A stretch of 42,318 bases of DNA from Desulfobotulus mexicanus (GTDB lineage Bacteria > Desulfobacterota > Desulfobacteria > Desulfobacterales > ASO4-4): positions 1-42,318 of the forward strand of contig NZ_VDMB01000026.1 of assembly GCF_006175995.1 (NCBI RefSeq). Direction: 5' to 3'. Numbering within the stretch: the first letter of the stretch is position 1; each line of letters opens with the position of its first letter. The position numbers were made by a program, and so were the translations under genes. Positions 359 to 41,178 of this stretch are shown piece by piece. The notes under the pieces were generated by a model that saw only the letters and a program-made list of their open reading frames with translations, did no database searches and had not been told where the DNA came from.

Positions 359-374
359 TGGCTGATTTTTTGCA
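359..374 (+). promoter_or_regulatory. Weak sigma-54-like (-24/-12) element before the histidine kinase
   Basis: The sequence TGGCTGATTTTTTGCA has GG and GC elements in the correct register for a sigma-54 promoter (consensus TGGCACG-N4-TTGCA). Positions 5 to 7 deviate. It lies about 90 bases upstream of the kinase start at 464, inside a 154-base gap that otherwise shows nothing clear. It is weaker than the sites before tmcD and rseC and may be chance in T-rich DNA. Confidence 0.35.
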
Positions 375-463: not shown

Positions 464-1936
464 ATGGCTCTGAGCATAATGTGGATACCCAGAGATAAAG
501 AGCATCTGCCGCTTCTGTCTTCATTTCTGAAAGATAAGGATGTGAATCTTCATGTCTATCCTCCTGGAAGTGCTGAACCCTTTACCTGGGATGCGGATAT
601 TGTTATCTGGCAGATGCCTTCGGATCCTGTGCTGGCCAAAGCTCTGCAGGACCGTGTACGCAGTCTTTCGGACCACTGCAATATTGTTATTCTCGGAGAA
701 CCGAAACAGGAAGAGGCAATGCTGCGGTGCATGGACAGGGGAGCTGTGGATCTTCTTTTCACGCCCCTTAAGTCCTGGGAAATCCACGCTTTGCTGCGGA
801 GGCATTTTCTGCGGGTAAAAAATGAGCAGGAGCTTTTACGGATGGAGCGCTTTTTCCACAATTCGCCCTGCTATATCACCATTCAGGGTAAGGAGTGCAA
901 CATCCGGGCGGTTAACCGTCGTTTTCAGAAGGATTTTGGTGTGAAGGCCGGGCTCCCCTGTTACATGGTGTACAGGGATGATCCCCAGGTCCGTTCGGCA
1001 CCCTGCCCCAGCTGCCCATTGAAAAAAACCATACAGGACGGCAACCCCCATCAGTCGGAGATGCTTATGATCAACCGAAAGGGGGAAGAGGTTCAGCTCC
1101 TTGTGTGGACAGCCCCTGTGTATGATGAGAGTGGCAGTTTTAATGAAGTTATGATGGTGAGTACGGATATCACCAATTTTTACAGGGAAAGGGAGCATCT
1201 TTCCCATCTGGGGCTGATGATCAGTACTCTTTCCCATAGTATTAAAGGGCTTCTGACGGGCATGGATGGTGGAATTTATCTCATGAGTTCCGGATTCCGC
1301 AAGAACAGTACGGAAGATATGGAAGAGGGCTTTGAAGCGGTCAAACATATTACAGATCGTCTGCGGAGTCTGGTGCTGGATATACTCCTGTATGCCAAGG
1401 ACAGGCCCATGGACTGGGAGCGTATGGATGCCATGAGTTTTCTGGAGGATGTCTTTCAGACCATGGCCCCAAGAATCAGGATACAGGGAATATCCTTTGT
1501 TTCTTATTTTGATTCTGGCCTTGATTTTTTTGATGTGGATGCGGGAATATTCAGGACTGCCCTGATCAATCTTTTGGAAAACGCCCTGGATGCCTGTATG
1601 GCAGATGCCACAAAGGAAAGTCACCGTATTGAAATGCATGGGCAGGAATCCGATGATGGCAGTGAGATTCTAATTGAGATCCGGGATACGGGTATCGGAA
1701 TGGATGAGGAAACCCGCAGGCGTATGTTTACCATCTTTTTTTCCTCCAAGGGCCGCAGTGGGACAGGGCTTGGACTTTTTATCACAAGCCGTGTCATCCA
1801 TCAGCATGGAGGTGAGATACGTGTGACTTCTTCCCCCGGAGAAGGAACGGTATTTACCCTGCGTATTCCCAAAGCACGGCTTGAGATTGTTGAAAAATCT
1901 GAAGAACGCACGCAGGGTAGTGTTTTGGGCAGTTAA
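464..1936 (+). CDS. PAS-domain sensor histidine kinase with degenerate N-terminal receiver
   Basis: This 490-residue protein has no obvious membrane segment, so it is probably a cytoplasmic kinase. Residues 1-115 resemble a receiver fold, but the phospho-acceptor Asp is absent (the strand reads ADIVIWQMP). A PAS domain follows at about 125-240, with a Cys-rich stretch (PCPSCP near 180-185) seen in many PAS domains of this phylum. The phospho-acceptor is probably His258 (STLSHSIKG). A HATPase domain follows with N box NLLENALDA, DTGIGM and GTGLGL. It sits directly upstream of tmcDCBA and faces the same way, with a receiver-only protein after tmcA, so it probably signals about the tmc system (inference). 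The start lacks a clear ribosome binding site; ATG 479 is an alternative. Confidence 0.85.
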   Translation: MALSIMWIPRDKEHLPLLSSFLKDKDVNLHVYPPGSAEPFTWDADIVIWQMPSDPVLAKALQDRVRSLSDHCNIVILGEPKQEEAMLRCMDRGAVDLLFTPLKSWEIHALLRRHFLRVKNEQELLRMERFFHNSPCYITIQGKECNIRAVNRRFQKDFGVKAGLPCYMVYRDDPQVRSAPCPSCPLKKTIQDGNPHQSEMLMINRKGEEVQLLVWTAPVYDESGSFNEVMMVSTDITNFYREREHLSHLGLMISTLSHSIKGLLTGMDGGIYLMSSGFRKNSTEDMEEGFEAVKHITDRLRSLVLDILLYAKDRPMDWERMDAMSFLEDVFQTMAPRIRIQGISFVSYFDSGLDFFDVDAGIFRTALINLLENALDACMADATKESHRIEMHGQESDDGSEILIEIRDTGIGMDEETRRRMFTIFFSSKGRSGTGLGLFITSRVIHQHGGEIRVTSSPGEGTVFTLRIPKARLEIVEKSEERTQGSVLGS

Positions 1937-1963: not shown

Positions 1964-1990
1964 AGTCCTGAAAACAGGACTGTTTTGTAT
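1964..1990 (+). terminator. Probable rho-independent terminator after the kinase gene
   Basis: A 7-bp perfect stem, AGTCCTG/CAGGACT with an AAAA loop, is followed by the T-rich run GTTTTGTATTT. It lies 28 bases after the kinase stop, so the kinase and tmc genes are probably separate transcripts. Confidence 0.55.
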
Positions 1991-2179
1991 TTGTCCGAAA
2001 AACCAGCCTCTTTTCAAGGTCCTGTTTTAAAGTTTTTGTCTTCTTTTTTGCCCCAGTCCTGTGTATTCCATGAAATTTATGTACCATGGGTGATTTTTTT
2101 TAAAGGAAGCAGGTGCAGGTCTGTTCTCCTGTTTTTTGAAGACAGTTTTTAGGCTGTGGGTGCCTGTTTCAGAATCTTA

Positions 2180-2195
2180 TGGCCCGTTATTTGCT
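2180..2195 (+). promoter_or_regulatory. Sigma-54 (-24/-12) promoter for tmcDCBA
   Basis: TGGCCCGTTATTTGCT matches the sigma-54 consensus TGGCACG-N4-TTGCW at every fixed position except one (C for A), with the 12-base GG-to-GC register exact. It would start transcription near 2206, about 100 bases before tmcD. The 370-base gap 1937-2308 also holds the upstream terminator and several CCTGTTTT-like repeats (near 1967, 2020 and 2130). The kind of activator that would act here cannot be seen in the sequence. Confidence 0.65.
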
Positions 2196-2308: not shown

Positions 2309-3583
2309 ATGAAGCAGAAAACAATTTCGAAAGCAGAATGGGACTGGCAGGCAGGTCGCCGTATTGTGGCGGATCTGAACCAGTGGAAAAATGAGTATGG
2401 TTATATGGAGGAGCCTGTAATCCGCCCCGATGGTGAAGGGGCTGCTGCCATTGTGCGCACGGATGAGGCAGAGTATTCCATTGTTTCCGAAACGGGGCTG
2501 TGGGAAGGTCGCTGGGATAAAATATGGAAGCTTAACTATGGTGCAGATCAGCGTCTGTCTGCGCTGGTTGCGGAAATGGGCACCTGGTCCATGGCTGTGG
2601 ATGATGAAACCTGGGAAGAGAGTTTTGATTTCCTCTGGACTCCCCTGAAAAGCTCTGATGGCAGCCACATTGCTGCATCTGTACAGCAGGGACGGCAGTA
2701 TGCTGCGGTACTTAACGGAGTAATATGGGAAAAGACCTTTTTTGCCATAAATGATCTTGCCATGGCTCCGTCCGGAGATAAGCTGGCTGCCGTGGTGCAG
2801 ACCGTGGCTCTGCAGGAAGGGGACATAGAAAAGTTCCAGAGCGGATGTTTTACCGTTGCCGTTAATGGAGAAAGCTGGCACCAGAATTTTGTGAATCTCT
2901 GGGATGTTCGTTTTTCAGCAGATGGTCAACATGTTGCCGCAGCGGCGCGTTCCAGCCTCTATGATTATACGGTGGTCGTGGACGGTAAGAGCTGGAATCA
3001 GCGTTTTGACGGTTTGTGGGAGCCCCTGTTTCTGAAAGACGGCAGGGTGGCTGTGCCGGGACGTTCCGCTGGAAAATGGCAGCTTGTGGTAAATGGTGCT
3101 CCTTTGTGGTCCCAGGCTTTTACCCAGCTATGGCAGCTTGTTGAAGATCCCGTATCCGGAAGGGTGGCAGGGGTTTGTGCTCCTGAATTCGGCAAATGGA
3201 CGATGGTGGATAACGGCAGGGTCTGGGGGCTGCGGTTCGGGGATATGGTTATGGATCCTGTTTTCAGCCCGGATGGCAGGCGTCTGGCATGTACGGGTAA
3301 AAGCGGTCATGCCTGGACCCTTGCCTGTGACGACAAGGCCTGGGATCATCGTTTTGAACAGATTTGGACTCCGGTTTTTTCTCCGGACAGTGCCCATGTG
3401 GGATGCCGTGTGCGGGACAAAGGCCGGTATGCTGTGTATGTGAATGGAAAAGCCATGGTTTCAGATCTTGATTTTGCCTGCGACCCGGTATTCAGTCCCG
3501 ATGGAAAGCTGGTGCTGATCCGTGGTGTGGGCGGTGAAGGAGGCGCAGGCAAGGTCTTCCGGGAAGTGCTGGAAATCGGCTGA
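2309..3583 (+). CDS. tmcD: TmcD, tryptophan-rich repeat protein of the Tmc complex
   Basis: The 424-residue protein has no signal peptide or membrane segment. It is built from about eight to nine repeats of roughly 40 residues with the pattern VVxGxxWxxxFxxLWxPxFSPDGxxVA, unusually rich in Trp. This suggests a beta-propeller-like fold. It matches the description of TmcD, the Trp-rich cytoplasmic subunit of the Tmc complex of sulfate reducers (family knowledge), and the three genes after it are clearly tmcC, tmcB and tmcA. The start ATG follows GAGGAG at good spacing. Its biochemical role is unknown; a scaffold on the cytoplasmic face is a guess. The gene order D-C-B-A is the reverse of the A-B-C-D order I recall for Desulfovibrio vulgaris. 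Confidence 0.75.
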   Translation: MKQKTISKAEWDWQAGRRIVADLNQWKNEYGYMEEPVIRPDGEGAAAIVRTDEAEYSIVSETGLWEGRWDKIWKLNYGADQRLSALVAEMGTWSMAVDDETWEESFDFLWTPLKSSDGSHIAASVQQGRQYAAVLNGVIWEKTFFAINDLAMAPSGDKLAAVVQTVALQEGDIEKFQSGCFTVAVNGESWHQNFVNLWDVRFSADGQHVAAAARSSLYDYTVVVDGKSWNQRFDGLWEPLFLKDGRVAVPGRSAGKWQLVVNGAPLWSQAFTQLWQLVEDPVSGRVAGVCAPEFGKWTMVDNGRVWGLRFGDMVMDPVFSPDGRRLACTGKSGHAWTLACDDKAWDHRFEQIWTPVFSPDSAHVGCRVRDKGRYAVYVNGKAMVSDLDFACDPVFSPDGKLVLIRGVGGEGGAGKVFREVLEIG

Positions 3584-3683
3584 GTCATGTGTGAACGAAC
3601 GAAAGATTTTTTCGTTTAATCGCTGAAATTGTCGGGACCAGGTACTTTAAAAACCGTTCCCGGAACTTGATAAAGGAGGTTCC

Positions 3684-4346
3684 ATGACCCTGCAAACCCT
3701 TTATACCATCATTGCCGGTCCTCTGGCTGTGCTTGCCATCACAGGCTTTGTCCTTGGCTGTGTGTACCGCATTGTTATGGCGGTGCGGCAGACGGCATCG
3801 GACCGGATGGTAATTGAATATTTTCATCCCCGCTATGCCCTGCGTTCCATTCTGAGATGGCTTACACCCTATTCAACGGTGAATATGCGTCGCCATCCCA
3901 TTATGACTCTGGTGACCTTTGTATTTCATCTAGGTATGGTGGTGATGCCCTTTTTCATTTTTGCCCATATGCTGATGGTTTATGAAGCCTTCGGTCTTTC
4001 CTGGCCAACCCTGCCGGATGTTTTTGTGGAATGGATGAGCTGGGCCGTACTCCTTGCTCTGGTTTTTTTTCTGGGCCGGAGACTTATACTGCCTGAGGTT
4101 CGTTATCTCACAACCCTTTCTGATTATTTGATTCTCCTGTTGATAGCTCTTCCATTTTTCACGGGTATCTGGGCATACAAGGGATGGTGGGCTGCTGAGT
4201 GGGTTACCCTTCTCCATATGCTTTCCGGAGAAATACTTCTTCTGGCCATTCCCTTTACGCGTTTGGGGCATATGGTTTTATTTTTCATGACTCGCGGTTA
4301 TATGGGCTCTGAATTCGGCGGCATCCGCCATGCCCGGGACTGGTAA
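3684..4346 (+). CDS. tmcC: TmcC, cytochrome b-type membrane subunit
   Basis: This 220-residue integral membrane protein has about five hydrophobic helices and is related to the NarI/DsrM-like cytochrome b family. His residues lie in or near helices (FHLGMVV, FAHMLM, LLHMLSGE, RLGHM) and are candidates for haem b ligands. In Tmc it carries electrons across the membrane between the periplasmic cytochrome TmcA and the cytoplasmic Fe-S subunit TmcB (family knowledge). A strong AAAGGAGG site precedes the ATG. It lies 100 bases after tmcD, and tmcB starts 10 bases beyond its stop. A menaquinone-reacting role, as in related complexes, cannot be excluded. Confidence 0.82.
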   Translation: MTLQTLYTIIAGPLAVLAITGFVLGCVYRIVMAVRQTASDRMVIEYFHPRYALRSILRWLTPYSTVNMRRHPIMTLVTFVFHLGMVVMPFFIFAHMLMVYEAFGLSWPTLPDVFVEWMSWAVLLALVFFLGRRLILPEVRYLTTLSDYLILLLIALPFFTGIWAYKGWWAAEWVTLLHMLSGEILLLAIPFTRLGHMVLFFMTRGYMGSEFGGIRHARDW

Positions 4347-4356
4347 GGGAGGCGCC

Positions 4357-5691
4357 ATGACACAGCAGACGGTAAAGGTAAAAAAGAATATTGTGGATGA
4401 AGGCATTGAGGCGGGCCTTGCCCGTCTTACGCCGGAACGGATAGAGTCCGTTATTCAGCGTGTACTGAACCGTGAAGCAGGTGCACGCCTGAAAACCTAT
4501 GCAAGGACCTGTGTACACTGCGGTCTCTGCTCCGACGCCTGCCATCATTTTGTATCCATGAACCGGGATCCTAAGCTTTCTCCTGCGGGTAAGGTGAAGC
4601 GGACCATTGGCGTTATGATGCAGAAAAAAGGGAAGGTTTCTAAGGATTTTATCCGGGAAGCTGCCATGGTGGCCTATAGTGAGTGCAATCTTTGTAAAAA
4701 ATGTGTGCTTTACTGCCCCTTTGGCATAGATGTCGGATATCTGATGACCCTTGTGCGCCGCATCTGTCATCTTCTTGGTGTAGTGCCCCGTTATATGCAG
4801 GATACGGCCCACAGCCAGTCAGTGCATTTCAATCAGATGTGGATCAACGGAGATGAGTGGGTGGATACCCTGTTCTGGCAGGAGGAGGAGGCCAGGGATG
4901 AAGCGCCGGATATCCGTATCCCCGTGGATAAGGAAGGCTCTGACATCTTCTATTCTGTAATCGGTCCTGAACCAAAATTCCGCGCCCAGCTTATTTATCA
5001 GGCAGCCATGATTTTTGAAGCCGCAGGCTCGGACTGGACCATGCCCGGTTCTCCGGGTTGGGATAACTCTGATCTCTGCATGTTCAGTGGAGATAATGAG
5101 ATGATGGGCCGTAATAAGCGAGCCCATTTTGAGGCTGCCGCAAAACTTCGGGTGAAAAAGATAGTCATGGGCGAGTGTGGTCACGCCTTCCGTTCCGTAT
5201 ATGATGTGGGTAACCGCTGGCTGGGCTTTAAGATGCCGCCCATTCCCGTTATCCATGCCGTTGAGTTTTATCATGACCTTGTCTGTAACGGAAAAATCCG
5301 CATTCTTAAAAAGTTTGCCCAGCCCATCACCCTGCATGACCCCTGCAATATTGCAAGGGGTATGGGGCTTTACGAAAAGGCAAGGGAGCTTGCCCATGCT
5401 CTCTGTGAAACCGTGGTGGAAATGACTCCCAACCGGGAGCATAACATCTGCTGCAATGCCGGAGGCGGTATCATTAACTGCGGTCCTCCTTTTAAGGATA
5501 AGCGGGTGGAAGCAAACTCCGTGAAGGCAAAGCAGCTTTTTGATGCCAAGGCCATGGGTGCGGAGGTTGTAATTGCTCCCTGCCATAACTGCCATGGTGG
5601 TCTGGAAGACATTATTCACCACTATGGCGTGGAAATGGAGCTGAAGTTTTTCGGTGATATCATCTATGAAGTCATGGAGAAGCCAGAATGA
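4357..5691 (+). CDS. tmcB: TmcB, HdrD-like iron-sulfur subunit
   Basis: The product is 444 residues from the ATG at 4357, chosen because it follows AAGGGAGG at ideal spacing; an upstream ATG at 4330 would overlap tmcC. Two [4Fe-4S] motifs are present (Cys52, 55, 58, 62 and Cys110, 113, 116, 120). A CCG-type C-terminal region follows with HDPCN, CCNAGGG and APCHNCHGG, as in heterodisulfide reductase subunit D, where such cysteines bind a noncubane cluster. It is cytoplasmic and membrane-attached through TmcC. The thiol-disulfide or other partner on the cytoplasmic side is not known. Its stop lies 17 bases before tmcA, so the two are probably translationally coupled. Confidence 0.87.
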   Translation: MTQQTVKVKKNIVDEGIEAGLARLTPERIESVIQRVLNREAGARLKTYARTCVHCGLCSDACHHFVSMNRDPKLSPAGKVKRTIGVMMQKKGKVSKDFIREAAMVAYSECNLCKKCVLYCPFGIDVGYLMTLVRRICHLLGVVPRYMQDTAHSQSVHFNQMWINGDEWVDTLFWQEEEARDEAPDIRIPVDKEGSDIFYSVIGPEPKFRAQLIYQAAMIFEAAGSDWTMPGSPGWDNSDLCMFSGDNEMMGRNKRAHFEAAAKLRVKKIVMGECGHAFRSVYDVGNRWLGFKMPPIPVIHAVEFYHDLVCNGKIRILKKFAQPITLHDPCNIARGMGLYEKARELAHALCETVVEMTPNREHNICCNAGGGIINCGPPFKDKRVEANSVKAKQLFDAKAMGAEVVIAPCHNCHGGLEDIIHHYGVEMELKFFGDIIYEVMEKPE

Positions 5692-5708
5692 GACATGAAG
5701 GAGTGTAT

Positions 5709-6095
5709 ATGCTTAAAAAATCCCTTGCTTTTCTATCTGTTCTCGGCATCCTTGGCCTGATTGTGTTTTCTCTGAATGCCTTTTCAGGTATTGATGAGGG
5801 CACGGTGACGGACCCGGCCTTTGAGCGTAAAACCCGTGGAACTGTTGCCTTTGACCATGATATGCATATGGAGGCACCGGGTGTCACGGATTGTGCCACC
5901 TGCCACCATTATTATGAAGATGGAGTTCTGATTGAATTTGAATCTTCCGAAGGGTTGAGCTGTTCTGAGTGTCATATGGGTAAGGGCGGGGATATCATGC
6001 CCCTGATAGAAGCCTATCATCAGCAGTGCCGGAGCTGTCACATTGAGCAGCAGGCAGGTCCTGTAACCTGTGCCGGGTGTCATGAGAAACCCTGA
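5709..6095 (+). CDS. tmcA: TmcA, type II tetrahaem cytochrome c3
   Basis: This 128-residue exported cytochrome has an N-terminal hydrophobic segment (about residues 5-25) that serves as signal or anchor. Four CXXCH haem c sites start at Cys62, 85, 107 and 121. Extra His residues (FDHDMH, CHH) suit bis-His ligation. It accepts electrons from the periplasmic c3/hydrogenase pool and passes them to TmcC (family knowledge). The ATG at 5709 follows GAAGGAG by five bases; ATG 5688 overlaps tmcB and would put charged residues before the signal. It is clearly homologous to the cytochrome of the rnf operon at 31971-32339: both end in a CxxCHxxxQAGPVxCAxCH block. Confidence 0.88.
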   Translation: MLKKSLAFLSVLGILGLIVFSLNAFSGIDEGTVTDPAFERKTRGTVAFDHDMHMEAPGVTDCATCHHYYEDGVLIEFESSEGLSCSECHMGKGGDIMPLIEAYHQQCRSCHIEQQAGPVTCAGCHEKP

Positions 6096-6235: not shown

Positions 6236-6589
6236 ATGCTTAAAAAAATCATGGTGGTGGATGACGACCCCATTATCCGTAAATATCTGATGAATGTGTT
6301 CAATGATAATGGCTATGAGGCCTGTGGTGCAGCATCGGGCCCTGAGGCTTCGGAGCTTCTGGAAAAGGAAAAGCCGGATCTTATTACTTTAGATTTGGAA
6401 ATGCCCGATGAATGGGGTCCAAGGTTCTACCGACGCATGACTAAAAATCCTGAGTATGCGAAGATTCCGGTAATCGTGATTTCCGGTATGCAGAGCCGGC
6501 ATCTTTCCATTAACAAGGCCATTGCCTATCTGGATAAGCCTTTTGATCCGGAAAAACTGATCGGAATTATCAAAAACACCATCGGCTGA
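6236..6589 (+). CDS. Single-domain response regulator
   Basis: This 117-residue receiver has no output domain. The acidic pair D10/D11, phospho-acceptor Asp53 (ITLDLEMP), Ser in VIVISG and Lys in YLDKPF are all present, so it should accept phosphate. A GGAGGAGG-like site precedes the ATG. It follows tmcA and faces the same way. With the kinase at 464-1936 it frames the tmc operon, a layout that suggests phosphorelay or protein-protein control linked to Tmc (inference). Without a DNA-binding domain it cannot act directly as a transcription factor. Confidence 0.85.
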   Translation: MLKKIMVVDDDPIIRKYLMNVFNDNGYEACGAASGPEASELLEKEKPDLITLDLEMPDEWGPRFYRRMTKNPEYAKIPVIVISGMQSRHLSINKAIAYLDKPFDPEKLIGIIKNTIG

Positions 6590-6691: not shown

Positions 6692-6768
6692 CGGGAAGTG
6701 GCTCAGCCTGGTAGAGCACAGCGTTCGGGACGCTGGGGTCGCTGGTTCGAATCCAGTCTTCCCGACCA
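6692..6768 (+). tRNA. tRNA-Pro (anticodon CGG)
   Basis: A full cloverleaf of 77 bases can be drawn. The acceptor stem is CGGGAAG/CTTCCCG and the anticodon stem CAGCG/CGCTG encloses the loop TTCGGGA. The T arm carries GGTTCGAATCC, and CCA is encoded at 6766-6768. Anticodon CGG reads the proline codon CCG. Confidence 0.95.
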
Positions 6769-7293: not shown

Positions 7294-7668
7294 ATGGATG
7301 TTTCAATTAAAATCCTTGTAGTAGATGATTTTGCCACCATGCGGCGCATACTGAAAAATATTCTCAAGCAGCTGGGCTTTACTAATATAACCGAAGCAGA
7401 TGATGGCACAACAGCCCTTGAAGCCCTTTCTAAAAACAGCTTTGACCTTATTATTTCCGACTGGAACATGCCTAAGATGACAGGCCTTGAACTGTTAAAA
7501 AAGGTTCGTTCCGATCCGGCCTATAAGAATATCCCATTTTTGATGGTCACGGCGGAAGCCCAGAAACAGAATGTGGTTGAAGCTGTGCAGGCGGGGGTTT
7601 CTAATTATGTGGTAAAACCCTTTACAGCAGAGTCCATTGCCGAAAAACTTGAAAAGATTATCTCCTGA
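7294..7668 (+). CDS. cheY: CheY-type chemotaxis response regulator
   Basis: This 124-residue single receiver is close to chemotaxis CheY in length and motifs: acidic pair D11/D12, phospho-acceptor Asp56 (ISDWNMP), Thr in LMVTAEA and Lys in YVVKPF. The SDWNMPxMTGLELLK block is typical of CheY that binds the flagellar switch, unlike the divergent receiver at 6236. An AGGAGGG site precedes the ATG. It is a lone gene here, with no cheA, cheW or flagellar genes in the window, so its role in motility is family-based inference. Confidence 0.82.
   Translation: MDVSIKILVVDDFATMRRILKNILKQLGFTNITEADDGTTALEALSKNSFDLIISDWNMPKMTGLELLKKVRSDPAYKNIPFLMVTAEAQKQNVVEAVQAGVSNYVVKPFTAESIAEKLEKIIS

Positions 7669-24243: not shown

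Positions 24244-24246
<3 letters not shown>
24212..24246 (+). terminator. Terminator for phaC (plus strand)
   Basis: ATCCGGGA and TCCCGGAT form a stem continued by GGCCTTAAGGCC-like pairing, followed by TTTTTTT at 24239-24245. The tail overlaps the nifJ stop region, so convergent transcripts end within 80 bases of each other. Confidence 0.75.
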
Positions 24247-27813
<3,567 letters not shown>

Positions 27814-27869: not shown

Positions 27870-28445
27870 TCAGCCCATTCCTTTAAATGCAAAGAAGCTT
27901 AAAGAAACTACGCCTGCGGTTACCAGCCCGATGGCTGTGTCCCGGAAAGGGCCTGGAACCCGCATCTGGAAAAGTCTTTCCCGGATGCCCGCAAAGAGGG
28001 TGAGGGCCAGACCGAAACCCACGGCATAGGCTGTGGATGCCACCAGGGTTTCAATAAAGGTGTATTCCGCACTGATGGCCAGCAGACAGGCCCCCATTAC
28101 GGCGCAGTTGGTGGTGATAAGGGGGAGAAAGATGCCCAGACCCGCATAAAGGCCGGGGGCACTTTTTTTAAGGAACATTTCCACAAACTGCACCAGTGAG
28201 GCAATTATGAGGATAAAGGCAATGGTACGCAGAAAGGTGATGCCCATGGGTGCCAGCAGCCAGTGTTCCACCATCCATGTTACGGAACCGGCCATGACCA
28301 GAACAAATAGAACGGCCATGGACATGCCCACAGCTGTTTCCATTGCCTTGGAAGTGCCCATGAAGGGGCAGATGCCAAGATACTGGGTGAGAACAATGTT
28401 GTTGATAAGAATGCAGGTAATGGCCAGGAGGATATAGGTTTCCAT
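27870..28445 (-). CDS. rnfA: RnfA, membrane subunit of the Rnf complex
   Basis: This 191-residue protein has six transmembrane helices and closely follows the RnfA/NqrE family: ILINNIVLTQYLGICPFMG near the N terminus and LITTNCAVMGACL in the middle. The two conserved Cys residues in opposed half-membrane helices are present; they hold the intramembrane Fe-S cluster with RnfE. It is the last rnf gene in the minus-strand operon, nine bases after rnfE. Confidence 0.96.
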   Translation of the reverse strand: METYILLAITCILINNIVLTQYLGICPFMGTSKAMETAVGMSMAVLFVLVMAGSVTWMVEHWLLAPMGITFLRTIAFILIIASLVQFVEMFLKKSAPGLYAGLGIFLPLITTNCAVMGACLLAISAEYTFIETLVASTAYAVGFGLALTLFAGIRERLFQMRVPGPFRDTAIGLVTAGVVSLSFFAFKGMG

Positions 28446-28454
28446 GGTTCGCTC

Positions 28455-29051
28455 CTATCGGCGCTGGCTGATGAGGTTCATGAGTCCCAGAAGAATACCG
28501 AGTCCTATAAAGGCACCGGGCGCTTCCACAAGAAATGTGAGGGGCTGGTATCCGGGACCGAAAATACTGTGTCCCAGCAGGGTTCCGTTTCCAAAGGCTT
28601 CCCGAAGAGCGCCAAGGGCAGCCAGTGAAAGGGTGAATCCGATGCCTATACCAAGGCCGTCGGCCAGGGATGGGAGGACGCTGTTTTTGCTGGCAAAGGC
28701 TTCGGCCCTTCCCAGAACAACACAGTTCACGACAATGAGGGGAATGAAAATTCCAAGCTTCTGGTATAAAGGATAGGTGAAGGCCTGCATGAGCATATCC
28801 ACAATGGTGACAAAGGTTGCTATCACAAGAATGTAGCAGGCAATGCGCACTTTGGGTGGAATCTGATTTCTCAGAATGGAGATCAGCACATTGGAGCAGA
28901 CCAGCACAAAGGTGGTGGCAAGGCCCATGCCGATGCCGTTTTCAACGGTCATGGTAACGGCCAGTACGGGGCAGAGTCCAAGGACCAGACGGAAGGGCGG
29001 AATTTCTTCCCACAGTCCCTTGAGGAACTCTTTATGCAAAGGACGCGGCAT
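28455..29051 (-). CDS. rnfE: RnfE, membrane subunit of the Rnf complex
   Basis: This 198-residue, six-helix protein is homologous to RnfA with opposite topology. The hallmark segments GLCPVLAVT and FIPLIVVNCVVLGRAEAFA carry the conserved Cys residues that share the intramembrane cluster with RnfA. It starts directly after the rnfG stop with no gap, a sign of coupled translation. Confidence 0.96.
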   Translation of the reverse strand: MPRPLHKEFLKGLWEEIPPFRLVLGLCPVLAVTMTVENGIGMGLATTFVLVCSNVLISILRNQIPPKVRIACYILVIATFVTIVDMLMQAFTYPLYQKLGIFIPLIVVNCVVLGRAEAFASKNSVLPSLADGLGIGIGFTLSLAALGALREAFGNGTLLGHSIFGPGYQPLTFLVEAPGAFIGLGILLGLMNLISQRR

Positions 29052-29642
29052 TTATTCCTCCTTTTCCGTTTTGGAAGATTCGAGTTCGGGTTTGAGGCGA
29101 AGGTAGGCCGAAGAAGCCCGTTCCACTGCCTGAACCACCGCACGGGCTGTGATGGTGGCACCACTTATGCTGTCTAAGCTTCCACCGTCTAAGCGGAGGC
29201 TTTCCGGTGATCCGGCTTTTTTACCCTTAAACTGACGGGTGAAGGACGGGTCATCCTTGGCCCTTGATCCTATGCCCGGTGTTTCGCTGTGGGTAGTTAC
29301 ACCCGCACCCATCAGGGTATCGTCCTTCAGGCTGAAGCCCACCATCACATGAACATCTCCGGAATAGCCCTGTGCCCTGTCTTCCAGCACCATGATGCTT
29401 TGATTGTTCACTTTGCCTGGAAAAATGAGATAGTCACGATTGCCGTCATTTAAGGTGAACCGATCGGCAATGGGGTCGTTTTCCGTGCCTTCAAGAATCT
29501 GCCGGATAACCGGCGCTTTTTCATTGGCAAGTTTCTGTCTTTCAATGGGGTCTTTGGTCCACTGCTGAACTCCCGCCAGCACTCCGCCGGAGACGGCACT
29601 GAGGATGGCAAGGGTGACCACCATACGTATCATTTCTCCCAT
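29052..29642 (-). CDS. rnfG: RnfG, flavoprotein subunit with covalent FMN
   Basis: This 196-residue protein has one N-terminal membrane helix and an extracytoplasmic FMN-binding domain. The flavinylation motif DSISGATIT places the FMN-bearing threonine at Thr163, the target of ApbE flavin transferase (family knowledge). No apbE gene is in the window. It overlaps the end of rnfD by 13 bases. In this organism it may take or give electrons to the operon's cytochrome in the periplasm. Confidence 0.94.
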   Translation of the reverse strand: MGEMIRMVVTLAILSAVSGGVLAGVQQWTKDPIERQKLANEKAPVIRQILEGTENDPIADRFTLNDGNRDYLIFPGKVNNQSIMVLEDRAQGYSGDVHVMVGFSLKDDTLMGAGVTTHSETPGIGSRAKDDPSFTRQFKGKKAGSPESLRLDGGSLDSISGATITARAVVQAVERASSAYLRLKPELESSKTEKEE

Positions 29643-30601
29643 GAGGACCTCCCCAGGGCTTTGGGCCGCATCCGGTCCAGGATGGGCGTAAGAAGATTCA
29701 TCAGGAGAACGGCAAAGACAGCACCGTCTCCATAAACACCCAGATTACGGATGATGATTACCAGTGCACCGCCGCCAAGGCCAAAGATAAGCATGGGTAT
29801 GGGCAGTACCGGAGATCCTGCATCCTCAGGCATGAGAAAAAAGGCCACCAGAAGGGTGCTGCCCGTGAGCAGATGGAAGAGGGGACCTGCATAAAGGGCA
29901 GGATTCATCAGGTGAAAAGCTGTGGCCGTAAGAAGAATACCTGCAAGGAAGGAAAGGCAGATTTCCCAGCGTGAAATGCCGGTGAGCATGAGAAAGATGC
30001 CCCCGATCAGAAGCCCTGCGGCACAGCCTGTTCCGATATAGGCAATTTCCCTGCCCATAAAAAGATCGGCCATGTTAAAGCGGAAGGCTGCTTCAGCTCC
30101 CATGGCCTTTACTTCAACGAGGGGCCAGATGGCCGGAAAATTAAGGGTGTAATTGAGAAAGGTCCGATCCAGATCATAGAGGTGGGGCCAGGATATGAGA
30201 AGAAGGGCTGTGACCAGAGCCGCAGGATTAAAGGGATGGGTGCCCGTGCCTCCATATATTTCCCGGCCAAGGCCTACGGCAAGGCCCGTTGCACAGACCA
30301 CAGCCCACCATGGCATGGCCATGGGCATGAGCATGGCAATGAGAAGGCCGGTCAGGGCAGCACCGCCGTCTTTTGCGGAAGAGGGCTTTCTGCTTATTAA
30401 CTGAAAAAGCACTTCCCAGATCATGGCTGAGCCTACGGCCATGAGAAGCACTGCAAGGGCAGGCATGCCAAAGCGCAGAATCGTTGGGACTATGGCAGGA
30501 AGGGCTGCTGCCATGATGATGAGGTGCCGGATGGAAATACTCTGTCCGCAGTGCATGAACGGTGCATGCCCCACGGTGAACCGGGTTGCGGAAGACATCA
30601 T
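29630..30601 (-). CDS. rnfD: RnfD, membrane subunit (flavinylation site apparently missing)
   Basis: From ATG 30601, which overlaps the rnfC stop as ATGA and has AGGAGG eight bases upstream, the product is 323 residues with about nine helices. An upstream ATG at 30712 lies inside rnfC and is rejected. The segments YGGTGTHPFNPAALVTALLL and IGTGCAAGLLIGGIFLML identify RnfD/NqrB. Where related proteins carry the FMN-binding Thr in an S/T-x-ATP-like motif before the GEtSala-type helix, this one reads VEVKAMGAEAAF, with no threonine. Either FMN is not covalently bound or the site has moved. Confidence 0.92.
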   Translation of the reverse strand: MMSSATRFTVGHAPFMHCGQSISIRHLIIMAAALPAIVPTILRFGMPALAVLLMAVGSAMIWEVLFQLISRKPSSAKDGGAALTGLLIAMLMPMAMPWWAVVCATGLAVGLGREIYGGTGTHPFNPAALVTALLLISWPHLYDLDRTFLNYTLNFPAIWPLVEVKAMGAEAAFRFNMADLFMGREIAYIGTGCAAGLLIGGIFLMLTGISRWEICLSFLAGILLTATAFHLMNPALYAGPLFHLLTGSTLLVAFFLMPEDAGSPVLPIPMLIFGLGGGALVIIIRNLGVYGDGAVFAVLLMNLLTPILDRMRPKALGRSSWEK

Positions 30602-31908
30602 TCTGCCACCTCCTGATTCTGCGCTTCTTCGGCCAGATAGCGTCGGTGTTCGTATTTGGCCAATTGAATATACTGGAAAATGGGAATGCGTCCGGGGCAT
30701 ACAAAGCTGCACAGGCCGCAGTCGATGCAGCTCATAAGGTCAAAGGATTCCGCTGCTTCCCCATAATGGCCAGCTTCCAGAACCCGCAGAAGAAGATTCA
30801 CAGGAACCCGTGCCGGACAGATGCGGTTGCAGGCACCGCAGTTGAGGCAGGATGGGGTCTGTGAAGGAACACCCTTTTCTGCTGCCTGAACGAGGAGGGT
30901 ATCCGTGTCCGGACATATGGGGAAGTCATCGGTATATACGGCATAGCCTGTCATGGGGCCGCCCAGAATCAGTCTGTCTCCGTATTCGGCCTTAAGTCCC
31001 AGATGTTCCAGTACCTTTGAAACAGGCGTTCCGATGCAAACGGAAATCAGATGGCCAATGCCGTCCTTTCCCATGACCTGCACCAGTTTCTGCATGGGAG
31101 GAACGCCCGTTGCGTAGAGAGTTCCCATGGCAGCCAGGGCTTCGGCCTGCAGGACAAGGGTTCCTGCTTCCATGAGGGGTGCTTCCGCAGGGGCTTCTTC
31201 TCCTGTCACAGTGCGGTGGAGGAGGCGGGGAGAAGCTGCCGGATAAACCGGTGCAACTCCGTGCACGCGGCATCCCTTGAGCTTGTTCCATTCCTGCTGC
31301 TGGCCTTCCACCACCATAAGGTGGGCTGAAGCCGAAGGCCATGTACTGCGAATCCATTCCAGTCCGGCTTCAAGATCTTTTTGTCTTGTCTTAAGTACGT
31401 ACTGGTTGTTGGTGGCCAGAACATCGGAGCCAAGCCCGTTGATAATAACCCTCAGGGGCGGATTTTGGGGCAGCTCAGGTTTGCCGGGAAGTGCAGGAGC
31501 TGCCCGGAACATGTCGCTGCGCTGAAAACTTTCCGCCTGAGGGGGGGAGTCCGTTTCTCCTGCTTCTATGGTGAGGGTCATATAGACACGTCCATAGTCT
31601 CCCACATAGGGGGTCATGCCTGTCACGGTGCCGGAGATGGGGGATATGACGGCATGGCCTTTGTCAAAAAGTTCAAGGAGTTGTCCCTTTGATACGACAT
31701 CGCCTTTTTTAAGTTTAAATTCCTTGCCCGGAATCTGCTTGAGTCGCAGAAGGGCTTCCCTGCCACCAATGCCATGGCCCAGAGTCTGATCCGAAAGAAG
31801 GGTGACGCTCTGCGGGACGGGCAGAGGGTCCAGGTCAGGGGGAGTTGGTGGCAGCAGTGCATACCTGAGCCGGGAAGAACCAAGGGTAAGCAGTCGGTTA
31901 ACAATCAT
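30598..31908 (-). CDS. rnfC: RnfC, NADH-binding iron-sulfur subunit
   Basis: This 436-residue soluble subunit sits on the membrane face of Rnf. An SLBB/NqrA-like N terminus carries LKKGDVVSKGQLL and SPISGTVTGM. The centre is a Complex I 51-kDa-like NADH/FMN domain (GGPMTGYAVY). The C terminus has two [4Fe-4S] motifs, CLNCGACNRICP (near 367) and CIDCGLCSFVCP (near 406). It exchanges electrons with NAD+/NADH (family knowledge). It lies 62 bases after the cytochrome gene. Confidence 0.95.
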   Translation of the reverse strand: MIVNRLLTLGSSRLRYALLPPTPPDLDPLPVPQSVTLLSDQTLGHGIGGREALLRLKQIPGKEFKLKKGDVVSKGQLLELFDKGHAVISPISGTVTGMTPYVGDYGRVYMTLTIEAGETDSPPQAESFQRSDMFRAAPALPGKPELPQNPPLRVIINGLGSDVLATNNQYVLKTRQKDLEAGLEWIRSTWPSASAHLMVVEGQQQEWNKLKGCRVHGVAPVYPAASPRLLHRTVTGEEAPAEAPLMEAGTLVLQAEALAAMGTLYATGVPPMQKLVQVMGKDGIGHLISVCIGTPVSKVLEHLGLKAEYGDRLILGGPMTGYAVYTDDFPICPDTDTLLVQAAEKGVPSQTPSCLNCGACNRICPARVPVNLLLRVLEAGHYGEAAESFDLMSCIDCGLCSFVCPGRIPIFQYIQLAKYEHRRYLAEEAQNQEVAE

Positions 31909-31970: not shown

Positions 31971-32339
31971 TCAGCGGCTATGACAGGCTGCACAATCCAC
32001 GGGCCCTGCCTGCTCATCTTCATGGCACTGGATGCACTGGTCGTGGAGGGCATCCATGTAGGAAAGCATAAAGGGATCTTCAGAATCTTTTTCGTGGCAG
32101 ACAAGGCAGGAAAAGGTGTCATCCCCGTAATCCAGGTTGTGATGACAGCTTGCACAGTCCAGTCCGTAATCTTCAGAATGGATCTGATGGTCAAAAAGAA
32201 CATTGCCTGCCTTTCCTTCAAAAAGTATACGTACGGGTTCCATGGGAGGCTGGGCCGGAAAGAGGGTGTAGGCCCCGAAACCCAGCAGAGAAAGCACAAT
32301 GGCTATGGCCAGAAGCTTTTTTGGTGGTAAATGCTGCAT
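31971..32339 (-). CDS. Tetrahaem cytochrome c of the rnf operon
   Basis: This 122-residue exported cytochrome has a signal/anchor helix (about residues 8-27). Four CXXCH sites start at Cys62, 78, 102 and 116, with extra His residues (FDHQIH, CHH) for bis-His ligation. It is a clear paralogue of TmcA at 5709-6095: the first haem sits at the same residue, and both end in a QAGPVxCAxCH block. In Desulfovibrio a multihaem cytochrome gene also precedes rnfC (established, as I recall), so it probably links Rnf to the periplasmic c3 pool. The gene starts the run cyt-rnfC-D-G-E-A. Confidence 0.88.
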   Translation of the reverse strand: MQHLPPKKLLAIAIVLSLLGFGAYTLFPAQPPMEPVRILFEGKAGNVLFDHQIHSEDYGLDCASCHHNLDYGDDTFSCLVCHEKDSEDPFMLSYMDALHDQCIQCHEDEQAGPVDCAACHSR

Positions 32340-32437
32340 GGTAATCCGCCTTTTGTATCCGTAAGTTCATAAGAATGTGCAGGGCTATGACCGATACTTA
32401 CCGGTTGACAGACAAAGGGGGCCGGTGTGACTGTACG

Positions 32438-32468
32438 CAGCCCCGATGGGAGAGAGATATCGGGGCTG
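32438..32468. other. Perfect 10-bp hairpin between rseC and the rnf cytochrome gene
   Basis: CAGCCCCGAT (32438-32447) and ATCGGGGCTG (32459-32468) form a perfect stem with an 11-base loop. On the coding (minus) strand no T run follows, so it is not a standard terminator for rseC. It may be a processing or attenuation hairpin setting the ratio of rseC to rnf messages. Confidence 0.45.
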
Positions 32469-32532
32469 TTTGTACAGGAGGTTCAGGCAGCCTGCTTGAT
32501 GGAATTGTTTAGCAATATGAATGCCATATTGT

Positions 32533-33051
32533 TTATATGGTTGTTTTTATTTGAATTGATTCGTTTTTGTCTTCGGTCTGACGGGGCGGTTCTGTGGGAT
32601 TGTCCGAAAAAGCGGACTGTTCCGGACCTTTGATGCGTTTTAAAATTTTTGGTCCATATGCCGGAGAGCGGGCCAGTCTGGAACTGATGTGGCGTATGGT
32701 AAAAAATGCCAGTGCAAGGGACAGTAGACCGGCACAGGCAGCTAAGGCATCGGCCGGCAGGTGCAGCCTGCTGGCGGCATGGTGGGCGGTAAGTGCAGCA
32801 CTTACAAAAAAGACAACGGGCGAGACATAAAGAAGGGCCATGACCCTTACAAACTCGCTGTTTCCTATGCCCACAAGAACCTTGTCTCCTGCTCTGAGAC
32901 CGGGAAGGGTTTTGACCTCTATCTCCATGCTTGCCGGATCTACGGAACAGACACTTCTGGCTTTACAGGCGGCACAGGCTTCGGGTCTGCAGGCCTGAAT
33001 TCGGGTGTTTTCTCCTGATGTGAAGGTGACGATGGCCTCTGTTGTTCGCAT
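32533..33051 (-). CDS. rseC: RseC/MucC family membrane protein
   Basis: This 172-residue protein has a short N-terminal beta domain with four Cys (residues 21, 26, 29 and 35), then two membrane helices (about 70-88 and 100-120) and a charged tail. This is the RseC/MucC layout, in which the Cys cluster is thought to bind an Fe-S centre. RseC-like proteins accompany Rnf in several bacteria and, with Rnf, reduce SoxR in E. coli. It is read towards rnf, 193 bases upstream of the cytochrome gene, so it is probably the first gene of the operon. GAGGAG precedes the ATG. Confidence 0.85.
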   Translation of the reverse strand: MRTTEAIVTFTSGENTRIQACRPEACAACKARSVCSVDPASMEIEVKTLPGLRAGDKVLVGIGNSEFVRVMALLYVSPVVFFVSAALTAHHAASRLHLPADALAACAGLLSLALAFFTIRHISSRLARSPAYGPKILKRIKGPEQSAFSDNPTEPPRQTEDKNESIQIKTTI

Positions 33052-33099
33052 GACAGCTCCTCACTGAAGGTGGTTTGATACATCTCTTTTAATGATAAA

Positions 33100-33115
33100 A
33101 GCAAAAAACAGGCCA
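33100..33115 (-). promoter_or_regulatory. Sigma-54 (-24/-12) promoter for rseC-rnf
   Basis: On the minus strand the sequence is TGGCCTGTTTTTTGCT. It matches the sigma-54 consensus TGGCACG-N4-TTGCW except at two positions (CT for AC), with exact GG-to-GC spacing. The predicted start near 33089 gives a short leader of about 38 bases to the rseC ATG. It is very similar to the site before tmcD (TGGCCCGTTATTTGCT). Confidence 0.6.
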
Positions 33116-33146
33116 GATTTAATTTTTGACGGATGGGACAGCTCGT

Positions 33147-33236
33147 CGCAGGCGTAAGGCCTGCGTCTGTGAGTCTTTTTACGGTCCCTGTTTTGCAGGG
33201 GCATCCTTTACGGGTGCCCGGCTACAAGCGTAAAAC
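33147..33236 (+). repeat. Dispersed repeat, copy A
   Basis: The stretch with CTTTTTACGG, GCAGGGGCATCCTTTACGGG and CGTAAAAC matches, in the opposite orientation, the repeat at 36718-36827. Its left end is the hairpin CGCAGGC/GCCTGCG (33147-33165). It occupies the 540-base gap between the divergent rseC-rnf and rnfB genes, a place where it could touch regulation. Apart from the sigma-54 site at 33100 and a small CCCGC/GCGGG hairpin near 33549, I see nothing else in the gap. Confidence 0.6.
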
Positions 33237-33591
33237 ATGGTTGTTTAATTTCAAAGGCTTAGGCTTGCTATGGCTGAAAGATAATGATAATCAAAAAAAT
33301 ATTGGTGAAGCCTTTTTGGGAATGGATCAAAGGTCAAAGCTTTTGAATACATGGCATGAATCTTGTAATGTTATTTGCAGGACAAAGGGACGCTTGCGGA
33401 AGACGAAAGAGTAAGAACGGGTATTTTGGAAAAAAGATACGCTTTCCTTCATTAATATATAGAGTTTTGTACCTTGCGTCTGCTTTTTTATATAAAAAAT
33501 ACTGTCCGGAAAACAGGACGGCTTTTGGAGCAAGATCTGTACAGATTCCCGCACCTGCGGGTTCCACGAATCCAGAAGGAGAAAATTTGCA

Positions 33592-34437
33592 ATGAATATC
33601 CTGATTTCTGTACTGGCCCTGAGCGGACTGGGTGCCCTTATCGGTCTTTTGCTGGCCATTGCTGACAAATGGCTTTATGTGGAGGAAGATCCCCGCATTG
33701 ATCTGGTGGAAGGTGTGCTTCCCGCAGGTCAGTGCGGTGCCTGCGGTTATGCGGGATGTCGGCAGTATGCGGAAAAGGTGGTGCTTGAGCCCCGCGTTTC
33801 TCCGGCTCTCTGCACGCCGGGGGGGGCTGATGTGGCCCGTGAAGTGGCCCGCATCAGTGGTAAGGAAGCCGAAGAAATGCTTGCTGCCAAAGCTGTGGTT
33901 GCCTGTGGTGGTGGAAATGTGGAGGGATGCCATTCCCTGTTTACTTATCAGGGTATTTCCGACTGCCGTGCAGCTTCTTTGCTGACGGAAGGGGAGAAGG
34001 CCTGTAAATGGGGGTGCCTTGGCCTTGGAAGCTGTGTTTCAGTTTGTCCTGAAAATGCTATCCTTGTCAATGCGCGTGGTGTTGCTGAAGTGGATAAGGA
34101 AGCCTGCATCGGATGCGGTATCTGTGTCCGGGCCTGCCCCAAGGATGTGATTGTCATGGTTCCGGAAACGGCAAAAACCATGATTTTCTGCAAAAATCCG
34201 GACAAGGGCGGAGAAACTAAAAAAGCCTGTGACTTTGGTTGCATCGGCTGCCGTCTCTGCACCAAAGCCTGCCCCCACGGAGCCGTTGCCATGGCAGGCA
34301 ATCTCCCGGAAATAGATTACGCCAGATGCGCCGTCTGCCCTGAGCCTGTATGCCTTGGGGTGAAATGCAAGCCGGGTTGTTTTCTGCCCGTTTCCGGTAT
34401 CCGGCCTGGGGAAATATCAGAAGCTCAGGCTGCCTGA
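33592..34437 (+). CDS. rnfB: RnfB, polyferredoxin subunit, encoded apart from the rnf operon
   Basis: This 281-residue subunit has an N-terminal membrane helix and a first cluster motif (CGACGYAGC with a distant Cys). A ferredoxin-like region follows with CLGLGSCVSVCP, CIGCGICVRACP and CIGCRLCTKACP. RnfB takes electrons from reduced ferredoxin into the complex (family knowledge). In most genomes it sits beside rnfA. Here it lies on the opposite strand, divergent from rseC-rnfCDGEA, with its own GAAGGAG start site, so it needs its own promoter. A weak sigma-54-like site lies near 33352, with GT instead of GC at -12. Confidence 0.94.
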   Translation: MNILISVLALSGLGALIGLLLAIADKWLYVEEDPRIDLVEGVLPAGQCGACGYAGCRQYAEKVVLEPRVSPALCTPGGADVAREVARISGKEAEEMLAAKAVVACGGGNVEGCHSLFTYQGISDCRAASLLTEGEKACKWGCLGLGSCVSVCPENAILVNARGVAEVDKEACIGCGICVRACPKDVIVMVPETAKTMIFCKNPDKGGETKKACDFGCIGCRLCTKACPHGAVAMAGNLPEIDYARCAVCPEPVCLGVKCKPGCFLPVSGIRPGEISEAQAA

Positions 34438-39648: not shown

Positions 39649-41178
39649 GTGAAAATTACCCATGAACATTTCCGCGAAGTAACCCGCCGCATCTGTGGCA
39701 GTCTGGATCTGGATCAGGCCCTTTATGATGCTTTTTTATACATGAAGGATCTACTGCCGCTGGATGCCCTCTTCATCACCCTCTATGAGTACGAAAAAAG
39801 ACGCTCACGGGTCATTGCCCTTGCCTATGATGGAGGGGGATTTCTTCTGGATGAGAGCTTTCCCCTTTCCGATGCCGCATGGGAAGCCATCCGATCATGG
39901 CAGGCCCGGTCCAGATCCGATACCACACCATGGATACGGGATCATACCCATCCCATCAACCGGGAGATTCTGCGGACGGTGCGTTCGGGAGTGGCTGCCC
40001 TGCAGCAGATGGAAATAGGGGATTTCTGCAGCATGACCTGTGGTCTGCGCATCCAGAAAACCCTCATCGGCAATCTGACCTTTGGAACCCTTGGGGCCAA
40101 TCATTATAAAGACAGCCATGCGGCACTGGTGAGGGAACTCAATGAACCCTTTGCCATCGCCCTGTCCAATGCCCTGCGTTACATGGATCTGGTCCGGGAT
40201 CATAAGGCCCTGCAGCAGGATGCCCGCCGTATGATGGGAAGTGTTATGGTGGGATCAGACAGCGGACTGAAGGAAGTCCGTAAGCTCATGGCCCATGTGG
40301 CTCCCACGGACAGCCCCGTGCTGCTTCTGGGCGAAACGGGTACGGGAAAGGAAGTGGTGGCATCGGAAATCCATTCCCTTTCCCGCAGATCCCAAGGACC
40401 GCTGATTCGGGTCAACTGCGGTGCCATTCCCGAATCCCTCATCGATTCCGAGCTTTTCGGCCATGAAAAGGGGGCCTTTACCGGGGCGCTGGAAACCATG
40501 CCGGGACGGTTTGAAAGGGCCGATGGCGGAACCCTTTTTCTCGATGAGATAGGAGAACTCCCGGCCAGTGCTCAGGTGAAGCTTCTGCGGGTTCTCCAGA
40601 GTGGAGAATTTGAAAGGGTAGGGGGTGCCAGATCCATGAGGGCCAGTGTACGCATTGTTGCCGCCACCCACAGGAATCTGGAATCCATGATTCCTTCGGG
40701 AGAGTTCCGCCGGGATCTCTGGTATCGCCTCAATGTTTTTCCCGTTCATATTCCGCCACTCAGGGAAAGAAAGCAGGATATCCCTGCCATGGTGCATCAT
40801 TTCATCCGTATGAAATGTGAAGAGATGAATCTTCCCTATCGCCCCGATATCGCCCCCGGAGGACTGGACGGGCTGATGGCCTATGACTGGCCCGGCAACG
40901 TGCGGGAGCTTCAGAATGTGGTGGAGCGTGCCCTGATCCTCTGTCAGGGCAGGCCCCTTTCCTTTTCCCTTCTGCCGGACAGGGGGCATGAAGTTGTAAG
41001 GGAGGGCAGAGAGGATTTTACGGGAAACCGGACGCTGGATGGGGTGATGGCTGAACATATTCGTGCTGTTTTGCGGGAAACAGCGGGCAGAATTGCCGGT
41101 GAAAGGGGAGCAGCCGCCATTCTGGGACTGCATCCCAATACCCTCCGCAGCCGTATGAAAAAGCTGGGGGTGGTGTGA
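39649..41178 (+). CDS. Sigma-54-dependent activator with N-terminal GAF-like domain
   Basis: This 509-residue bacterial enhancer-binding protein has a GAF-like sensory region (about 10-185). Next comes the AAA+ domain with Walker A GETGTGKE (228-235), the sigma-54 contact loop GAFTGA (275-280), Walker B LFLDE (296-300) and WPGNVRELQNVVERA. A Fis-type helix-turn-helix closes the protein (ERGAAAILGLHPNTLRSRMKKLGV). It hydrolyses ATP to open sigma-54 promoters. There is no receiver domain, so a ligand bound by the GAF region, perhaps an organic acid or its CoA ester, is the likely signal (inference). The start is GTG 39649; the ATG six bases earlier runs into a stop. It is divergent from the CoA-transferase gene, its probable target. 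Confidence 0.92.
   Translation: MKITHEHFREVTRRICGSLDLDQALYDAFLYMKDLLPLDALFITLYEYEKRRSRVIALAYDGGGFLLDESFPLSDAAWEAIRSWQARSRSDTTPWIRDHTHPINREILRTVRSGVAALQQMEIGDFCSMTCGLRIQKTLIGNLTFGTLGANHYKDSHAALVRELNEPFAIALSNALRYMDLVRDHKALQQDARRMMGSVMVGSDSGLKEVRKLMAHVAPTDSPVLLLGETGTGKEVVASEIHSLSRRSQGPLIRVNCGAIPESLIDSELFGHEKGAFTGALETMPGRFERADGGTLFLDEIGELPASAQVKLLRVLQSGEFERVGGARSMRASVRIVAATHRNLESMIPSGEFRRDLWYRLNVFPVHIPPLRERKQDIPAMVHHFIRMKCEEMNLPYRPDIAPGGLDGLMAYDWPGNVRELQNVVERALILCQGRPLSFSLLPDRGHEVVREGREDFTGNRTLDGVMAEHIRAVLRETAGRIAGERGAAAILGLHPNTLRSRMKKLGVV

Follow-up and report, generated by a model that had tools for sequence, protein, structure and literature searches.

The LurSR lactate regulon of D. vulgaris resembles the locus described here in several respects: it relies on a two-component sigma-54 activator, a 16-bp box form, a lactate permease target and a box placed some distance upstream of a sigma-54 promoter (PMC6456213). 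The LurR sites reported for D. vulgaris are ATCCGCTTTTTCAGAC, GTCCGCTTTTCAAGAC, GTCCACTTTTTCAGAC, GTCTGCAATGTCGGAC and GTCCATTTTTTCAGAC (PMC6456213). NrfR and LurR of this organism are reported to bind the same sites (PMC6456213), so the box has no power to single out LurR. LurSR of D. vulgaris is reported to act on the por-lactate operon and on genes for lactate permease (PMC6456213), whereas in Desulfobotulus boxes are also found at rnf and tmc. In the DVU3142-ohc regulon of D. vulgaris, too, a sigma-54 activator governs a membrane complex for electron transport, but the complex is a different one and its single-component regulator is divergent from the target (PMC4641369). In Rhodobacter capsulatus, rnf itself is described as controlled by NifA and RpoN through a sigma-54 promoter and an enhancer-bound activator; unlike here, the activator is NifA, the context is nitrogen fixation and Tmc is not involved (PMC6925177). 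Control of rnf by a sigma-54 activator is, as such, already known (NifA, PMC6925177). No paper in the literature searched names LurR and Rnf together, and the words 'tmc' and 'rnf' are absent from the main texts of the D. vulgaris sigma-54 regulome and response-regulator studies.

The window analyzed here is a stretch of 42,318 nucleotides from Desulfobotulus mexicanus, and the genes of the two complexes are arranged in it as follows:

464..1936, plus strand: PAS sensor histidine kinase gene before tmc (PF02518 and PF13426 over cut-off)
2309..6095, plus strand: tmcD, tmcC, tmcB and tmcA (four NCBIfam equivalogs over cut-off)
27870..31908, minus strand: rnfC, D and G and two Rnf-Nqr membrane subunits (Pfam)
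31971..32339, minus strand: TmcA-like tetrahaem cytochrome (PF02085 over cut-off; NCBIfam TmcA 53.6 bits against a cut-off of 114)
32533..33051, minus strand: rseC (PF04246 over cut-off; below the NCBIfam equivalog cut-off)
33592..34437, plus strand: rnfB, divergent from rseC (TIGR01944 over cut-off)

RnfC, RseC and the cytochrome are assigned by Pfam and context, each being under its NCBIfam cut-off (RnfC reaches 147 of the 246 bits of TIGR01945), and the two Rnf-Nqr membrane subunits are named rnfE and rnfA from gene order. The rnfB gene lies on the opposite side of the rseC promoter, in reverse orientation. The observation in an earlier note on this DNA that each complex has a homologous tetrahaem cytochrome holds: the rnf-side protein is 38% identical to the TmcA of the window, and four CXXCH motifs are visible by eye in each. 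Coordinates and alignment place the kinase gene beside tmc also in two other Desulfobotulus genomes (G001 and G002), which are compared throughout with the window's own genome (G000). A pyruvate:ferredoxin oxidoreductase gene (24244-27774, minus strand) begins 95 bp past rnfA, and the gap holds no terminator-like hairpin; in G001, the frame after rnfA has the opposite direction. Downstream of tmcA lie two single-domain response regulators (6236-6589 and 7294-7668) and a tRNA gene (6692-6765).

Promoters recognized by sigma-54 follow the consensus TGGC-N7-TTGCW with fixed spacing. Scored with a hand-weighted form of this consensus (maximum 22.5), the upstream regions contain these sites:

359..374, plus strand: weaker sigma-54-like site TGGCTGATTTTTTGCA facing the sensor kinase gene before tmc (score 19.5 in 3/3 genomes)
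2180..2195, plus strand: sigma-54 site of tmcD, TGGCCCGTTATTTGCT (score 21.5 in 3/3 genomes)
32511..32526, minus strand: second sigma-54 site, TGGCATTCATATTGCT, facing cytochrome-rnfC (score 21.5; 3/3 genomes)
33100..33115, minus strand: sigma-54 site of rseC, TGGCCTGTTTTTTGCT (score 21.5 of 22.5; 3/3 Desulfobotulus genomes)
33352..33367, plus strand: weaker sigma-54-like site TGGCATGAATCTTGTA facing rnfB (scores 20.0, 20.0 and 19.0 in the three genomes)

The rseC site, read from 33115 to 33100, starts 64 nt ahead of the rseC ATG and would represent the -24/-12 element of a sigma-54 promoter. Strict consensus matches occur at rseC, tmcD and cytochrome-rnfC; the last of these begins 6 bases past the rseC stop, and since cytochrome-rnfC thereby has a sigma-54 site of its own, the rseC site is not the sole entry point. 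The whole window holds 6 strict matches against 1.73 expected, a number reached by 1 of 100 shuffles.

Both the elements and their conservation are seen directly. G001 and G002 keep sites of equal score ahead of rseC, tmcD and cytochrome-rnfC. Among 400 shuffles of each upstream region in G000, G001 and G002, respectively, the observed score is reached by 2, 2 and 0 for rseC, by 0, 1 and 2 for tmcD and by 0, 0 and 2 for cytochrome-rnfC. The sites facing rnfB and the kinase gene, though conserved, have scores that recur in 8, 13 and 22 and in 13, 14 and 22 of the 400 shuffles. In G002 the region upstream of tmc is for the most part poorly alignable with that of G000, yet the sigma-54 site is kept. 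The genome of the window encodes RpoN (one PF04552 match, E 1.7e-61). Taken as sequence evidence, this makes sigma-54 control of rseC and tmcD very probable, and the sigma factor shared by the two complexes, as proposed in the earlier note, is well supported. Beyond the genus, 27 loci for rseC (from 27 of the 48 other genomes of the order with an RseC match) and 27 for tmcD (from 27 of the 40 with a TmcD match) give best scores of 19.0 and 20.0 against 21.5 in Desulfobotulus; tmcD may not be the first gene in these loci, which makes them weak evidence of absence. The same order-level loci (198 kb) contain two box matches, and the Desulfobotulus arrangement is not seen in them.

In the window the rseC and tmc sites are indeed near-identical, the likeness from which a shared activator had been suggested: 2 of their 16 bases differ, and with 10 downstream bases added 22 of 26 are alike. 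In the relatives the likeness falls to 18/26 and 17/26, and among the variable positions 13 of 17 agree in G000, 9 of 17 in G001 and 8 of 17 in G002. As evidence for a common activator the near-identity was rejected, because it does not extend to G001 and G002 and because the likeness of two -24/-12 elements is silent on the identity of the activator. A 21-base pattern derived from the two sites is matched exactly nowhere else in the 3.83-Mb genome; at 3 mismatches it gains five more matches, and its reversed form has 0. Being built from these two sites, the pattern shows only the absence of a third copy.

A different feature is common to the two loci. A 16-bp palindrome, GTCC-N8-GGAC, precedes both tmcD and cytochrome-rnfC and is also present in the gap between rseC and rnfB; these boxes, like the sites at 32511-32526 and 33352-33367, are additional to the features that the earlier note described. 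A search for a common palindrome upstream of both sites, which that note had proposed, thus succeeds, with the qualification that the tmc copy is degenerate in G002. The boxes were scored with a matrix made from the five published D. vulgaris LurR sites alone, which is therefore not circular for Desulfobotulus; a second matrix was built from boxes of these genomes and its scores for them are circular. With the LurR matrix the boxes are:

1965..1980, no strand assigned: box GTCCTGAAAACAGGAC upstream of tmcD (12.5 bits)
1993..2008, no strand assigned: second tmc box, half-conserved (13.5 bits; counterparts in G001 and G002)
32602..32617, minus strand: LurR-type box GTCCGCTTTTTCGGAC within the rseC frame (22.4 bits, top 16-mer of the window)
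33504..33519, no strand assigned: box GTCCGGAAAACAGGAC between the divergent rseC and rnfB (14.2, 14.2 and 17.6 bits in the three genomes)

The box of cytochrome-rnfC (22.4, 20.7 and 15.6 bits in the three genomes) scores like true LurR sites, and it ends 75 bp ahead of the cytochrome-rnfC site in 3/3 genomes. The box between rseC and rnfB lies 388, 439 and 184 bp upstream of the rseC site in the three genomes, a distance that tells against the regulon proposed below. Upstream of tmcD, the first box ends 199 bp ahead of the sigma-54 site; it is identical in G001, and in G002 it is degenerate and 353 bp away. It can also be read as a terminator-like hairpin with a T-rich tail, 28 bp past the kinase stop. 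The second tmc box follows 28-30 bp beyond the first in the three genomes. The tmc boxes reach 12.5-13.7 bits, and a background of 331 kb holds 38 matches of at least 12 bits and 8 of at least 14; this background is rich in real sigma-54 promoters, as 24 of its 25 stretches were picked around activator genes. The LurR-matrix match ranked second in the window (17.2 bits, position 34985) does not belong to any of these promoters. No good LurR-type box was found near the kinase-facing site at 359..374.

In number the boxes are ordinary. The form GTCC-NN-AAAA-NN-GGAC has 4, 7 and 1 matches in G000, G001 and G002 (reversed controls 6, 9 and 5), and a looser form has 15, 17 and 16 (reversed controls 25, 31 and 15). 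Since neither the counts of the box nor those of its looser form rise above the controls as a whole, it is their places that are not ordinary: three of the 4 strict matches in G000, three of the 7 in G001 and the single one in G002 (at rnf) fall at tmc or rnf, and 6 of 15, 6 of 17 and 5 of 16 looser matches fall at the tmc/rnf and lctP/activator loci, the rest being scattered. The tmc box and the rseC/rnfB box are identical at 15 of 16 bases, and in the 3.83 Mb of the genome GTCCKGAAAACAGGAC is matched exactly twice, ahead of tmcD and in the gap between rseC and rnfB; allowing up to 2 mismatches gives 11 matches (reversed control 13). Other strict palindromes lie in an adenylate-kinase-like frame (G000) and a penicillin-binding-protein-like frame (G001), both named by eye. 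From the looser search, the pairs L189/L208 and L192/L207 align between two genomes, and the pair L203/L204, also shared by two genomes, is coding sequence. GTCCGAAAAAACGGAC stands beside apparent CRISPR repeats (by eye) on three contigs of G001 (L092, L095 and L098, on C24, C41 and C55).

The top match to the LurR matrix in the 331 kb of background (17.4 bits) is flanked on one side by an L-lactate permease gene (PF02652) and on the other by an operon encoding a kinase of 1145 aa and a receiver-AAA+ activator of 475 aa (Pfam domains). The latter is the candidate for the regulator of these promoters:

G000:C2:46095-47519: candidate activator, receiver-AAA+, with a histidine kinase partner and a PF02652 permease as neighbor

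It is termed LurR-like here by its box, its Pfam domains and its lactate-gene context; the HTH_8 model has no match on it. In 3/3 genomes this locus has a sigma-54-like lctP site and a pair of boxes separated by 93-95 bp, the lctP box scoring 17.4, 17.4 and 15.6 bits. The nearer box ends 75, 74 and 75 bp ahead of the -24 element in the three genomes. This spacing, common to lctP and cytochrome-rnfC, is taken as the strongest single link of rnf to the lactate locus. Among D. vulgaris promoters, the largest group is reported to lie at most 100 nt from the box, and four are more than 300 bp away (PMC4641369). Another sigma-54 activator, encoded within the window (39649-41178, plus strand), is not favored as the cognate regulator: it adjoins a CoA-transferase gene, lacks a Pfam receiver and has no strict box nearby. 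Elsewhere in the genome, a divergent sigma-54 activator adjoins genes of a Nuo-like complex (by eye; L106:6006-7409, G000:C7). The stretch 3' of the lctP-linked activator (L120:7568-8052, G000:C2, and also L148 and L149) shows in the three genomes a box and a sigma-54-like site, TGGCATTTGATTTGCA, as well as conserved sequence, GGGGTCCCGCCGAGAT...; it may perhaps encode a sigma-54-dependent small RNA, and Rfam has no match on it.

Homologues of the candidate carry related signals. Homologue loci from the order and the phylum number 46; in 9 of them a box lies at most 450 bp 3' of the gene, against 0 of 24 other activators of G000. By chance, about 11 matches in 331 kb (the union of two counts, at least two of them lctP boxes) predict fewer than 1 in 19.6 kb; the 46 homologues are mutually related, so the 9 are not independent events. 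A sigma-54-like site scoring at least 19 is found beyond the box in 6 of the 7 box carriers with 350 nt of sequence there; among 1882 background tiles of that length, 102 have one. The boxes cannot readily be read as terminators, as a T run follows in 0/9 (by eye). All nine box carriers have SG[LF]SRSxxY near the C-terminus (by eye), and the recognition-helix motif SG[LFI]S[RK]S, present in 16/46 homologues, accompanies the 3' box: 9/16 with the motif have it and 0/30 without. The candidate itself reads SGLSKSHFY. Its closest homologue (59%; six candidates scored per genome) precedes a dld gene that shares about 72% identity with the dld of G001; the interval from activator to dld contains a 20.7-bit box, and a sigma-54-like site stands 76 bp past this box.

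From these sequences we infer binding, activation, signal and the identity of the activator, with decreasing assurance as the reading widens. That rnf and lctP have an activator in common is likely; that the same activator also serves tmc is somewhat less so, though more probable than not. A LurSR-like system driving lctP, rnf and, less surely, tmc as one enhancer-binding-protein regulon is favored by a little over even. The fullest version, in which a LurR-type activator directly controls lactate permease, Rnf and Tmc as one regulon and so wires fuel sensing to two membrane energy-conserving complexes, is put forward tentatively. In this regulon, the kinase would respond to a stimulus, perhaps lactate or a related acid, a guess based on the neighboring genes. 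The LurR-like response regulator encoded beside the lactate permease gene would then bind the GTCC-N8-GGAC boxes, most of which lie 75 to 440 bp ahead of the promoters, and loop to RNA polymerase-sigma54, so that the lctP, rnf and tmc promoters open. The rseC promoter would be grouped with that of cytochrome-rnfC and, less surely, with those of tmcD and rnfB. Fuel uptake and two membrane electron-transfer complexes would rise jointly. Within the one-regulon reading, as many as three promoters could possibly serve Rnf, and the divergent genes rseC and rnfB would have a single enhancer between them; the rnfB site is upstream of the box, so activation there would have to act from downstream. In six Desulfobacteraceae strains from outside Desulfobotulus, Rnf is described as abundant and constitutive, with Tmc the exception, which speaks against generality (PMC11887813). 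Rnf of D. alaskensis is reported as important on malate, fumarate, ethanol, hydrogen and formate; lactate is absent from that list, which speaks against lactate as the signal, and this may be something else (PMC4215793). If the reading is true, two complexes gain a named activator with its boxes and promoters, in a genus that includes a cultivated strain, and a LurR-type box outside lactate genes would mean a regulon rewired between sulfate-reducer lineages.

Three alternatives compete with this regulon. The sigma-54 words and palindromes could be functionless chance matches, with rseC and rnf read from sigma-70 or Rex-controlled promoters. Some strict matches are expected in the window in any case (the 1.73 given above), and Rnf of Desulfovibrio is described as coregulated by Rex (PMC4215793). 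The sites are nevertheless conserved through diverged sequence. Matches to the sigma-70 consensus number 0 in 32300-33700 and 0 in 1900-2320, against 1.5 and 0.5 expected. Words resembling the Rex motif are not commoner than in shuffles (24 vs 21.6), and no Rex operator by that motif was found at up to 3 mismatches in the stretches upstream of tmcD, rseC and the cytochrome gene in the window. Chance is accordingly very improbable as an account of these sites. A regulator other than the permease-linked one that recognizes the same box, such as an NrfR-like one, might instead serve rnf, tmc and lctP together, the permease-linked activator being a mere neighbor. Binding of the same sites by NrfR and LurR in D. 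vulgaris (PMC6456213) makes this conceivable, as does the number of activators in G000 (32 PF00158 matches, weak ones included). In each Desulfobotulus genome, with 27 candidates scored, this activator is the sole match at 1e-110, and the 3' box occurs with 9 of its 46 homologues and with 0 of the other 24 activators. An activator of this second kind is thus quite unlikely.

The remaining alternative accepts the sigma-54 promoters and the activator common to rnf and lctP and places tmc under another one, for example via the adjoining kinase, with the tmc palindrome acting as the kinase terminator. The hairpin with its T-rich tail just past the kinase stop fits this, as do the degenerate box of G002, the low scores on the LurR matrix and the retention of the kinase beside tmc in both relatives. 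Against it stand the 15 bases out of 16 that the tmc box has in common with the rseC/rnfB box, with no third exact match in the genome, and the second, half-conserved box further on in all three genomes. Separate control of tmc is rather unlikely on this balance. For the regulatory connection between Tmc and Rnf that the earlier note had advanced, the outcome is divided. The shared activator gains from a common palindrome that matches a published activator box and loses the argument from near-identical sites; the link is carried by the rnf boxes, and its tmc side is the weaker for the same features of the tmc box.

Two leaders downstream of the sigma-54 sites are themselves conserved. The tmcD leader (2207-2308) is strikingly so in the three genomes (GTGGCGTCTGC...GCATTCCAATCCAGCCG), the sequence upstream having drifted, and an RNA structure is possible there. 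The leader from the second sigma-54 site to the cytochrome gene (32430-32510) is also conserved (AGCAGGCTGCCTGAACCTCCTG...) and contains an inverted repeat, GCCCCGAT/ATCGGGGC.
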